Below are positions 55,929 to 58,965 of a stretch of DNA of 64,000 bases, piece by piece. Both the position numbers and the translations under genes were made by a program. Origin of the DNA: Chitinophagaceae bacterium PMP191F (lineage in GTDB: Bacteria; Bacteroidota; Bacteroidia; Chitinophagales; Chitinophagaceae); NCBI GenBank assembly GCA_001302245.1, contig LGYU01000005.1, positions 1-64,000 of the forward strand, read 5' to 3'. Every line of letters starts with the position of its first letter. The first letter of the stretch is position 1. The notes beneath the pieces are model-generated. The model worked only from the letters and a program-made list of their open reading frames with translations. It had not been told where the DNA came from and did no database searches.

Positions 55929-56936
55929 TTACAATAACCCCTTTTCCTGAAGGTATTCAGCTATCTGAACAGCATTGGTTGCAGCACCCTTACGCAAGTT
56001 ATCGCTTACAATCCACATGTTCAGGGTGTTAGGCTGCGTTTCATCTCTGCGTAAGCGGCCTACGAACACCTCATCTTTATCATGCGCATCCATCGGCATA
56101 GGATAAGCCTGGCTTGCAGGTTCATCCACAACTACAACACCGGCAGATTTTTGCAGCAGGCTTTTTACCTCATTCAACTCGAAATCATTGGCAAACTCTA
56201 CATTCACACTTTCACTGTGACCGCCCATCACAGGTATACGCACCGTAGTAGCAGTAACGCGGATGTTGTCATCACCCATAATTTTGCAGGTCTCTTTCAC
56301 CATTTTCATTTCCTCTTTGGTATAACCATTGTCGAGAAACACGTCAATCTGCGGGATCACATTTAGATCAATGGGATATTTATACGCCATGGGATATTCT
56401 CCACTGGCACCTTTTACAGCTTTATCACGCTCACCCATTAACTGATCAACAGCTTTTTTCCCGGTACCGGTTACACTTTGGTAAGTAGAGACCACTACAC
56501 GTTTGATACCATACTTTTTATGCAGCGGCTGCAATGCCACCACCATCTGGATAGTAGAACAGTTGGGGTTGGCAATCACTTTATCCTCTTTGGTAAGCAC
56601 CTCCGCATTTACTTCAGGAACCACCAGCTTTTTGGTAGGATCCATACGCCATGCAGAAGAATTATCAATAACAGTGATGCCTGCTTCAGCAAATTTGGGA
56701 GCCCACTCCAGTGACGTGCTTCCACCAGCTGAAAAGATAGCAACAGCAGGTTTGGCGGCAATAGCATCAGTCATGCTAACAATTCTGTAGCCCTTACCCT
56801 TGAAGGTAATCTCTTTACCTACAGATCTTTCAGATGCTACGGGAATCAACTCCGTTACAGGGAAATTACGCTCAGCCAATACCTGTAACATTTTGGTGCC
56901 TACCAGGCCGGTGGCCCCTACTACTGCAACTTTCAT
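55929..56936 (-). CDS. asd: Aspartate-semialdehyde dehydrogenase
   Basis: NADPH-dependent reduction of aspartyl-phosphate to aspartate semialdehyde, the branch point to Lys/diaminopimelate, Thr, Met and Ile. Start at ATG 56936 gives MKVAVVGATGLVGTKML, the usual beginning. Catalytic Cys in ANPNCSTIQMV, His in MGGHSESVNVEF, and the SGGSTSLEWAPKFAEAG strand are present; length 335 aa. The frame stays open upstream to 57140, but that part covers the regulatory leader described separately and is not the protein start. Attenuation by a leader peptide is likely. Confidence 0.96.
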   Translation of the reverse strand: MKVAVVGATGLVGTKMLQVLAERNFPVTELIPVASERSVGKEITFKGKGYRIVSMTDAIAAKPAVAIFSAGGSTSLEWAPKFAEAGITVIDNSSAWRMDPTKKLVVPEVNAEVLTKEDKVIANPNCSTIQMVVALQPLHKKYGIKRVVVSTYQSVTGTGKKAVDQLMGERDKAVKGASGEYPMAYKYPIDLNVIPQIDVFLDNGYTKEEMKMVKETCKIMGDDNIRVTATTVRIPVMGGHSESVNVEFANDFELNEVKSLLQKSAGVVVVDEPASQAYPMPMDAHDKDEVFVGRLRRDETQPNTLNMWIVSDNLRKGAATNAVQIAEYLQEKGLL

Positions 56937-56971
56937 GTTTGTGTTAATCGTTTTTAGGTTGAATAAATAAT

Positions 56972-57007
56972 AAAACAAAAAAGCCTCCCCGCTATGGGAA
57001 GGCTTTT
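56972..57007 (-). terminator. Attenuator terminator in the asd leader
   Basis: On the minus strand the stem is AAAAGCCTTCCC (plus 56996-57007) with GGGGAGGCTTTT (plus 56979-56990), 12 bp with one G-U wobble and a 5-base loop, followed by TTTTTTGTTTTA. It lies between the asd promoter and the asd start codon, so it must be read through for asd expression. Confidence 0.85.
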
Positions 57008-57037
57008 GGAATATATTCTGACATACGCATTGGTTTC

Positions 57038-57100
57038 CTAACCTTCCCTGTTGACGGAACGCATCTTGGTAACCTTGGTATGTTTCTTTATCTGTTGCAT
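57038..57100 (-). CDS. asd leader peptide (20 aa), predicted attenuator ORF
   Basis: ATG at plus 57100 to TAG at plus 57038 encodes 20 residues beginning MQQIKKHTKVTKM and ending RSVNREG. It has four Lys, two Thr, one Ile (rare ATA codon) and one internal Met, amino acids whose synthesis starts at Asd. A perfect -7 box lies 9 bases upstream, so the ORF starts right behind the transcription start. GGGAAGG near its stop codon (plus 57042-57048) is complementary to the 5' arm of the terminator (plus 56996-57002), giving an antiterminator. Too short for normal gene finders. Confidence 0.7.
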   Translation of the reverse strand: MQQIKKHTKVTKMRSVNREG

Positions 57101-57109
57101 TAACGAGTT

Positions 57110-57141
57110 CAAAAATACTCTGCAAATGCGTTACCCCCAAA
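57110..57141 (-). promoter_or_regulatory. asd promoter
   Basis: On the minus strand: TTTG (plus 57138-57141), then TATTTTTG (plus 57110-57117), with a 20-base spacer between TTG and the -7 box. Both elements fit the Bacteroidota consensus exactly. Transcription should begin close to plus 57103, immediately before the leader ATG. Confidence 0.8.
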
Positions 57142-57237: not shown

Positions 57238-58965
57238 ATGACAAATATCCTACGATCAACCGGGCTTGCGAGCCTGCTACTGCTATGTATTGCAACGTGC
57301 TATGCACAGACACCCCAGCGCTTTGATGTAGTAATAGATGAGTTATTTCCTGATCCTACACCCGTTATCGGGCTTCCCAACAATGAGTTTGTAGAGCTTA
57401 AAAATGTTTCTGCTACTGCCTTTAATCTGCGTGGCTGGAAACTGAGCGATGGCACCAGCACCGCCACTATTAATGTAAACTTCATATTGCAGCCTGATAG
57501 TTTTGTAATTGTATGCCCTAATTCAGCAGTTACTGCTTTTGCAGCATTTGGTACCACATTGGGTGTAAGCAGCTTTCCTTCCCTGAACAATGATGCCGAT
57601 GTAATTACATTATATGGACCCAATGGCAGCATTATTCACTCTGTAGCATACAACACCTCCTGGTATCACAATGATGTAAAAAGTGACGGAGGCTGGACGC
57701 TTGAAATGATCGACACGCACAATCCCTGCAGCGGCAGCAGCAACTGGACTTCCAGTAACCACCACAGCGGGGGCACACCCGGCAGAAAAAATTCTGTAGA
57801 TGGGATTAACAAAGATGAGCAACCACCGGTTCTGTTACGCACCTATACTATCAACGACACTACCATAGTAGCAGTTTTTGACGAACCGGTAGACAGCGTT
57901 ACTGCCGCTTTAATTACCAGTTACAGTATAAACAATGGCATTGGATATCCATTATCAGCATTGCCGGTGGTACCATCTTTTACCGAAGTAAGACTACGAC
58001 TATCTACTCCACTAAACGGCAATATGATCTATCAGCTATCCGTCAGCAATGTACAGGATTGCAGCAACAACAAGATTGGCAGTATGAGCACTGCCCGTAC
58101 AGGCTTACCCGTTACAGCCGATAGTTTTGATATCGTTGTCAACGAACTGCTTTTTGATCCGGTAAAAGATGGTTACGATTATATTGAGTTATATAACCGC
58201 AGTAATCATATCATTGACCTGAAGCAACTCAACATCTCTAATCGCAATACAGCTGGCAATCTTACCAATATCAAACAGCTTGCACCTGATCCCTACCTGT
58301 TCTTTCCCGGAGAGTACCTTGTTTTTACTGCCGGCAAACAATGGGTACAACAAAATTATGTTGTTAAGCGTCCGGACAATATTTTAGAACTGCCGTCATT
58401 GCCTTCTTTTCCAGACGATAAGGGCATAGCAGTACTTACCAACCTGCATGGCCGGGTAATTGATGAGTTAAGTTATGAGGCAAAATGGCATTTTTCACTT
58501 ATCAGCAACAGGGAAGGTGTGGCACTTGAACGCATCAGCTATGAACAGCCTACACAGCATCTGCATAACTGGACCTCTGCTGCTTCCACTGCAGGATATG
58601 GCACACCGGGGTATGTTAATTCACAACTGGGCGCTGCATTTTCCGTACAGGGCCAACTGGAAGTAACGCCAAGGATTTTTTCACCAGACAATGACGGTAT
58701 AGATGATTATATTACCATCAGCTATCGGGTTACCGGAACGGAGCATATGGCCAATGTTACTGTTTATGATGTACAGGGCAGACAAGTGCGTTACCTGGTA
58801 AAAAATGCCTTGCTGGGCACATCGGGCAGTTTTCGCTGGGACGGTCTTGATGAAAAGGCGAATAAACTTCCCCTGGGTATTTACATTATTGTTTCAGAAA
58901 TATTTAACCAGCAGGGACAGAAACAAAAATTTAAAAATGCGGTTACACTGGCACGCAGGCTTTAA
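57238..58965 (+). CDS. Secreted protein with two lamin-tail domains and a C-terminal FlgD-like Ig domain
   Basis: A 575-aa exported protein (signal peptide ending CYAQ; start at ATG 57238). Lamin tail domain 1 spans about 28-175 (VVIDELFPDPTPVIGLPNNEFVELKN ... NLRGWKLSDG), an Ig-like domain 205-300 (TINDTTIVAVFDEPVDSVTA), lamin tail domain 2 about 305-450 (DIVVNELLFDPVKDGYDYIELYN), and a C-terminal FlgD-like/CHU_C-type domain about 480-575 (RIFSPDNDGIDDYITISYRV ... FRWDGLDEKANKLPLGIYII). Such proteins are surface or secreted, probably type IX substrates. Role unknown; divergent from asd. Confidence 0.85.
   Translation: MTNILRSTGLASLLLLCIATCYAQTPQRFDVVIDELFPDPTPVIGLPNNEFVELKNVSATAFNLRGWKLSDGTSTATINVNFILQPDSFVIVCPNSAVTAFAAFGTTLGVSSFPSLNNDADVITLYGPNGSIIHSVAYNTSWYHNDVKSDGGWTLEMIDTHNPCSGSSNWTSSNHHSGGTPGRKNSVDGINKDEQPPVLLRTYTINDTTIVAVFDEPVDSVTAALITSYSINNGIGYPLSALPVVPSFTEVRLRLSTPLNGNMIYQLSVSNVQDCSNNKIGSMSTARTGLPVTADSFDIVVNELLFDPVKDGYDYIELYNRSNHIIDLKQLNISNRNTAGNLTNIKQLAPDPYLFFPGEYLVFTAGKQWVQQNYVVKRPDNILELPSLPSFPDDKGIAVLTNLHGRVIDELSYEAKWHFSLISNREGVALERISYEQPTQHLHNWTSAASTAGYGTPGYVNSQLGAAFSVQGQLEVTPRIFSPDNDGIDDYITISYRVTGTEHMANVTVYDVQGRQVRYLVKNALLGTSGSFRWDGLDEKANKLPLGIYIIVSEIFNQQGQKQKFKNAVTLARRL

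Follow-up and report, generated by a model that had tools for sequence, protein, structure and literature searches.

A predicted ribosome-mediated attenuator with a Lys/Thr leader peptide upstream of asd in Chitinophagaceae

Introduction

In enterobacteria, the thr operon attenuator (Thr_leader, Rfam RF00506) and the ilv, his and trp leaders share one design: a peptide with codons for the end product, an antiterminator that competes with a terminator, and a stop codon at which the ribosome occludes the antiterminator arm. The thr leader reads two end products. Most of what is known of lysine control in bacteria concerns riboswitches and regulator proteins, and the lysine riboswitch (RF00168) gives lysine-responsive control of lysine and diaminopimelate (DAP) genes in E. 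coli, B. subtilis and others. To our knowledge, no leader-peptide attenuator for lysine has been proven. Asd opens the pathway to lysine, threonine, methionine and isoleucine; dapA is the next step to lysine and serves only lysine and diaminopimelate. For F. psychrophilum, excerpts of one report mention leader-peptide attenuation as suspected before amino-acid operons (PMC9723704), and excerpts of another describe 5' UTRs bearing sORFs in Bacteroides thetaiotaomicron (PMC7366714). In Corynebacterium, the ilvB-II motif, an RNA motif from comparative genomics, proved to be a regulatory uORF of ilvBNC (PMC10272879).

Here we followed up a first-pass annotation that had proposed an attenuator upstream of asd in Chitinophagaceae bacterium PMP191F. 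The window is the whole stretch analysed, 64,000 nucleotides of contig LGYU01000005.1 (positions 1 to 64,000).

Results

Reading the minus strand directly, we found the promoter, the 20-codon ORF, the GGGAAGG segment, the terminator and the asd ATG all at the coordinates first reported for them. The leader and its gene comprise the following features:

57138..57141, minus strand: TTTG at -33 of the leader promoter (sequence; TTTG(G) stands at the equivalent place in the family alignment)
57110..57117, minus strand: -7 box TATTTTTG, sigma-A, TAnnTTTG (sequence)
57038..57100, minus strand: leader peptide ORF MQQIKKHTKVTKMRSVNREG with its stop, 20 codons, ATG at 57100 (sequence; inside a listed ORF)
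57071..57083, minus strand: arm a (segment 1), ACATACCAAGGTT, inside the regulatory codons (pairs with a')
57041..57048, minus strand: arm b (segment 2, 5' part), GGGAAGGT, adjoining the stop codon, 5' arm of the antiterminator (pairs with the terminator 5' arm)
57021..57035, minus strand: arm a' (segment 2, 3' part), AACCAATGCGTATGT (pairs with a)
56996..57003, minus strand: arm b' (segment 3), GCCTTCCC, common to antiterminator and terminator (sequence, cognate pairing, pair counts)
56979..57007, minus strand: intrinsic terminator hairpin (segments 3:4), 12 pairs, then a T tract to about 56972 (sequence)
55929..56936, minus strand: asd, aspartate-semialdehyde dehydrogenase, the regulated gene (profile matches)

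The spacer between TTTG and TATTTTTG is 20 nt on the minus strand, and GGGAAGG (57048-57042) lies immediately 5' of the leader TAG stop. The asd product scored 454 bits with NCBIfam NF011456 and 440 bits with TIGR01296 asd_B, in each case more than the model's cut-off. The leader RNA folded at -38.6 kcal/mol, compared with -24.9 ± 3.5 kcal/mol in shuffled sequences (z = -3.9, 0 of 200). From 5' to 3', arm a lies within the codons and arm b at the stop, followed by a', b' and b''. Pairings a:a' and b:b' cross and are thus mutually exclusive, and the antiterminator b:b' and the terminator both use b'. The divergent neighbour of asd (57238-58965, plus strand), which shares the intergenic region with the leader promoter, encodes a lamin-tail-domain protein with a CHU_C type IX secretion signal.

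Related genomes were then compared. We located asd in 143 of 150 of them, and upstream DNA was read for 110. The leader unit lay 5' of asd in 63 genera, all Chitinophagaceae (one genome per genus, first collection). A covariance model, R1, was built from 59 of these 63 leaders, and after a search with it the asd leader was present in 67 of 100 Chitinophagaceae genera. The unit conserved in the 67 consists of a sigma-A promoter, an ATG, a peptide of 14-21 codons, a GGGAAGG arm at the stop and a terminator. Carriers include Niastella yeongjuensis (L222), Sediminibacterium roseum, Limnovirga soli and species of Flavihumibacter and Filimonas; among the 87 Chitinophagaceae genera whose DNA upstream of asd could be read, about 24 lack this leader. 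R1 gave no match at the asd loci examined of Mucilaginibacter, Pedobacter, Sphingobacterium, Hymenobacter and Flavobacterium, nor in order-level relatives without a visible unit, and the other families of the order had no asd leader. From these sequences, the asd leader looks like a family-level trait.

We next asked how the leader ORF varies. The core K-H-T-K-R-T-K-K (pattern K-x-T-K-x-T-K-K) shares the reading frame of the ATG in 62 of the 63 genera aligned; in these 62 the ATG-to-core distance is 12, 15, 18 or 33 nt, always a multiple of 3. At codon 5, mostly Thr, the third base is maximally variable (2.00 bits, four bases equally used) and the first nearly fixed (0.44), which is the mark of a translated frame. 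At the four Lys positions, 24 of 35 changes go to Thr, Ile or Met, which like Lys are end products of the pathway opened by Asd. None goes to Arg, Glu or Asn, yet Arg and Glu are one transition away from Lys codons. Codon 2 is Thr or Ile in 59 of the 63 genera. Lys and Thr together make up 0.38 of the leader peptides; shuffling the codons lowers this to 0.24, and 60 of 63 genera exceed their shuffled share. Base pairing and A-richness could be behind part of this bias and of the nucleotide conservation. Peptide length and C-terminus vary among genera; the stop codon stands directly before or directly after arm b in nearly all of them.

The pairing arms were analysed sequence by sequence in a duplex test and on a realignment guided by the model; a first MAFFT alignment had mis-registered a' by two bases. 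When cognate arms were compared with arms swapped between genera, z was -11.5 for a:a', -7.9 for b:b' and -12.4 for the terminator, and the control duplexes a:terminator and b:a' gave -0.3 and +0.7. In alignment A3, which was fitted to the structure as the arm-swap test was not, a:a' and the terminator together had 138 double-changed cells, compared with 46.7 ± 7.7 in shuffles (0 of 500), and a covariation score of 0.314 that fell to 0.03-0.11 when slid. Within the family, 10 of the 12 terminator pairs have changes on both sides. The antiterminator helix was paired in 91% of cells, with 27 double changes against 14.4 (1 of 500 shuffles); this weaker covariation is expected because one of its arms must match b'' too. 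An additional small hairpin, a':a'', which lies beside the terminator, was paired in 80% of cells and would stiffen the antiterminator. These results support the pairing of a GGGAAGG antiterminator arm with the CCTTCCC terminator arm that the first-pass annotation had seen by eye, and also its possible pause hairpin between ACATAC (57083-57078, minus strand) and GTATGT (57026-57021), whose helix shows compensatory changes. The alignment of Chitinophagaceae asd leaders that it had suggested thus revealed both a conserved short Lys/Thr ORF and compensatory changes in the arms, and the family genera that carry the leader keep ORF and terminator alike.

To relate the arms to translation, we folded the leaders of the 63 genera in three states with a ribosome footprint. 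Without a ribosome, a:a' and the terminator formed in 61 of 63. With the ribosome on the core and the last arm not yet transcribed, the antiterminator formed in 63 of 63; with the ribosome at the stop it formed in none, and the terminator formed in all 63. When the complete RNA was folded to its energy minimum with the core masked, the terminator still prevailed in 39 of 63, the leader of the window among them. Antitermination must therefore be kinetic, the antiterminator forming first.

The start of the leader RNA was predicted from the promoter. The sigma-A box begins 15-17 nt 5' of the leader ATG in 46 of 63 genera, and in F. psychrophilum this box spans -12 to -5 (PMC9723704). With that spacing, transcription is predicted to start at about 57105, 5 nt 5' of the ATG, so that the leader ORF would be almost leaderless; across genera the predicted untranslated region is 3-5 nt. 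Leaderless mRNAs amount to 5.5% in F. psychrophilum (PMC9723704), and in B. thetaiotaomicron UTRs of <10 nt amount to 3.7% (PMC7366714). Given this rarity in both species, the predicted near-leaderless start looks like a selected feature.

A search of the bacterium's own genome with R1 returned only two strong matches, the asd leader (91.1 bits) and a leader at dapA (85.6 bits); the next scored 32. The second copy is:

5174..5305 of contig C29 in the own genome (G000:C29:5174-5305; L112:1501-1632, minus strand): second leader copy directly 5' of dapA, peptide MLMIKKNTKRSKKHSQCTEG with its stop (R1 match)

Leader copies at dapA were also found in four other genera (L148, L149, L150 and L151). 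They are not general: R1 matched at 4 of the 30 nearest dapA loci, and one genus (L150) was added by the genome search; other dapA loci often stand behind another gene and had no leader. As dapA leads to nothing other than lysine and diaminopimelate, the signal shared by the two genes is lysine. Of the Lys/Thr/Ile/Met signal originally proposed, the dapA copy thus favours lysine, which is probably the main signal, with a probable contribution from Thr, Ile and Met. In the own genome no Lys/Thr-type leader was seen at the bifunctional thrA, the second homoserine dehydrogenase or ilvD. Most R1 matches of 34-40 bits elsewhere were discarded as ordinary gene-end terminators.

Weaker R1 matches and direct inspection of loci pointed to further leaders, of which those with Trp, His and Cys codons follow the design of the asd leader. 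The own genome has a candidate Trp attenuator (G000:C4:73296-73429, minus strand; L114), with leader MNVNNQNKHWWWHTNLVRGL (WWW) and a terminator before trpE. It also has a candidate His attenuator (G000:C5:304300-305300, minus strand; L309), whose leader MNLFAHIHHHHTYPSR follows TATTTTTGCCCCGCAATT and precedes hisG; it has the run HIHHHH, and similar His-run leaders occur in relatives L160, L162, L169 and L184. In another family of the order, a Cys-run leader, MKINNYNHSNNNTSFSPCCCTCCCCCVPIREG, with a terminator precedes a sulfite/nitrite reductase gene (L221:1511-1610, plus strand) and carries CCCTCCCCC. Lys-rich leaders (for example MTRKLHKSKKHLPNR) in L154, L159 and L182 have a different terminator (GCTTACC) and stand before a class I aminotransferase gene. 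In L163 and L165 (MSTIYTHTNCWKKHRYSEGYGIY-type in L165), leader-like ORFs ending SEGYD... with terminators precede a hotdog thioesterase gene, and L176 has a leader similar to these that contains Cys and Trp.

We also searched for known regulatory RNAs. No Rfam family, the Thr, His, Trp, Leu, Phe and other leader families included, matched at gathering level in a scan of the window or in a permissive scan of the leader, the best being Phe_leader (25.5 bits against 55), and the all-Rfam scan of the window gave no T-box (RF00230) match at its gathering threshold. The lysine riboswitch RF00168 was found neither in the window nor in 100 Chitinophagaceae genomes, and four control genomes gave matches.

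Discussion

Read from sequence, every structural hallmark of a ribosome-mediated attenuator is present at this locus. A predicted short ORF carries codons for pathway end products, as frame and coding-type variation attest. A predicted terminator, visible in the sequence and conserved, lies between that ORF and the structural gene; duplex tests and pair counts support a mutually exclusive antiterminator and a 1:2 hairpin over the regulatory codons; and, by position and folding, the stop is placed so that a terminating ribosome would mask the antiterminator arm. What the sequences support directly is the anatomy of the leader, its conservation and frame, the identity of its codons, the covariation between competing arms and the copy at dapA. 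Hence the attenuator of asd that the first-pass annotation had claimed is supported by the conserved Lys/Thr ORF and the covarying arms. We are confident that this leader is a ribosome-mediated transcription attenuator tying asd to the supply of charged tRNA-Lys, and probably to that of the Thr, Ile and Met tRNAs too.

Stalling, termination or read-through and the amino-acid response are steps that we infer. The RNA would begin about 5 nt upstream of the ATG of the leader and take up a ribosome at its 5' end. When amino acids are ample, the ribosome would reach the stop codon and cover arm b (GGGAAGG), or else be released and let a pair with a'; as b could not hold b', the terminator would form and the RNA would end near 56972. 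When Lys (or Thr, Ile or Met) is short, the ribosome would stall in the KKHTKVTKM codons and cover arm a. This would leave a' and b free, and b:b' would form the antiterminator, with the small a':a'' hairpin inside it in most genera. No terminator could then form and asd would be transcribed.

Other explanations were weighed against this attenuator. An arrest peptide or metabolite sensor similar to TnaC, in which free lysine or another molecule acts with the nascent chain in the tunnel to stall the ribosome and uncharged tRNA does not, would fit the conserved, basic peptide core. However, core positions accept exchange to Thr, Ile, Met, Asn or Ser, the substitutions follow the amino acids made from the Asd product as codon sensing predicts, and sister leaders with runs of His, Trp and Cys codons suggest codon-based sensing, which makes an arrest peptide improbable. 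We consider it slightly less probable still that the unit is a conserved gene for a small protein or an sRNA which happens to lie upstream and ends in an ordinary gene-end terminator, asd having a promoter of its own. Although in some genera the terminator stands 117-211 nt before asd and leaves space for a second promoter, in 22 of 63 no more than 50 nt separate the start of the T tract from the asd ATG, which is too little for a -33/-7 promoter and a UTR. Arms b and a' would have no function if this were just the end of a gene, but both covary with their partner arms; nor does such a gene agree with a peptide of variable length and C-terminus or with a leader unit that also stands 5' of dapA. 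That the ORF arose by chance beside an ordinary hairpin, with no regulatory element at all, is scarcely credible: AT-rich spacers often contain motifs that resemble promoters and terminators, but conservation, covariation and in-frame evolution over more than 60 genera already refute it.

If the attenuator acts as proposed, it would provide Chitinophagaceae, which yielded no lysine riboswitch, with a direct sensor at the gene that opens the branch and, in some members, at dapA. Leader-peptide attenuation works only if the first ribosome closely trails RNA polymerase. A covarying attenuator in dozens of genera, together with the His, Trp and Cys sister leaders, is therefore evidence for transcription-translation coupling in a phylum whose translation does not depend on Shine-Dalgarno sites. 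A broader reading could equally well turn out right or wrong: attenuation typical of the phylum, with the leader ORF a few nucleotides from the RNA 5' end and no Shine-Dalgarno sequence, the first ribosome loaded as the RNA emerges, and the mixed Lys/Thr/Ile/Met string of asd reading the joint supply of the aspartate family. If true, it would imply close coupling in Bacteroidota. The predicted near-leaderless start allows a direct test of how ribosomes are loaded.

A full-text literature search found no description of an asd or dapA leader. A comparative survey of attenuation by Lopatovskaya et al. (2010), cited in PMC4833913, could contain an earlier prediction. Four traits appear to be new within the literature searched: control of asd and dapA, codons of the Lys type, arms that covary and a start that is nearly leaderless. 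The novelty for Bacteroidota claimed at first may hold for an asd attenuator; it does not extend to attenuation itself, which the own genome's His and Trp leaders would also represent and which excerpts on F. psychrophilum already name as suspected (PMC9723704). The asd leader shares the phylum and the proposed principle with that case (PMC9723704); in the excerpts of that report and of the B. thetaiotaomicron report (PMC7366714) there is no mention of a leader at asd or dapA, of Lys specificity or of arms that covary. The asd leader differs from the Corynebacterium ilvB-II motif in phylum, gene and codons, and from the lysine riboswitch in that it would sense through translation, whereas the riboswitch binds lysine. 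Its kinetic antitermination, deduced from folding, resembles that of known attenuators. The asd leader would work like the thr, ilv, his and trp attenuators, with the same logic of codons, competing hairpins and stop placement. In contrast to those enterobacterial leaders, it serves other genes (asd and dapA) and uses other codons (Lys with Thr, Ile and Met), and it has a Bacteroidota promoter, no Shine-Dalgarno sequence and a predicted ORF that is nearly leaderless.
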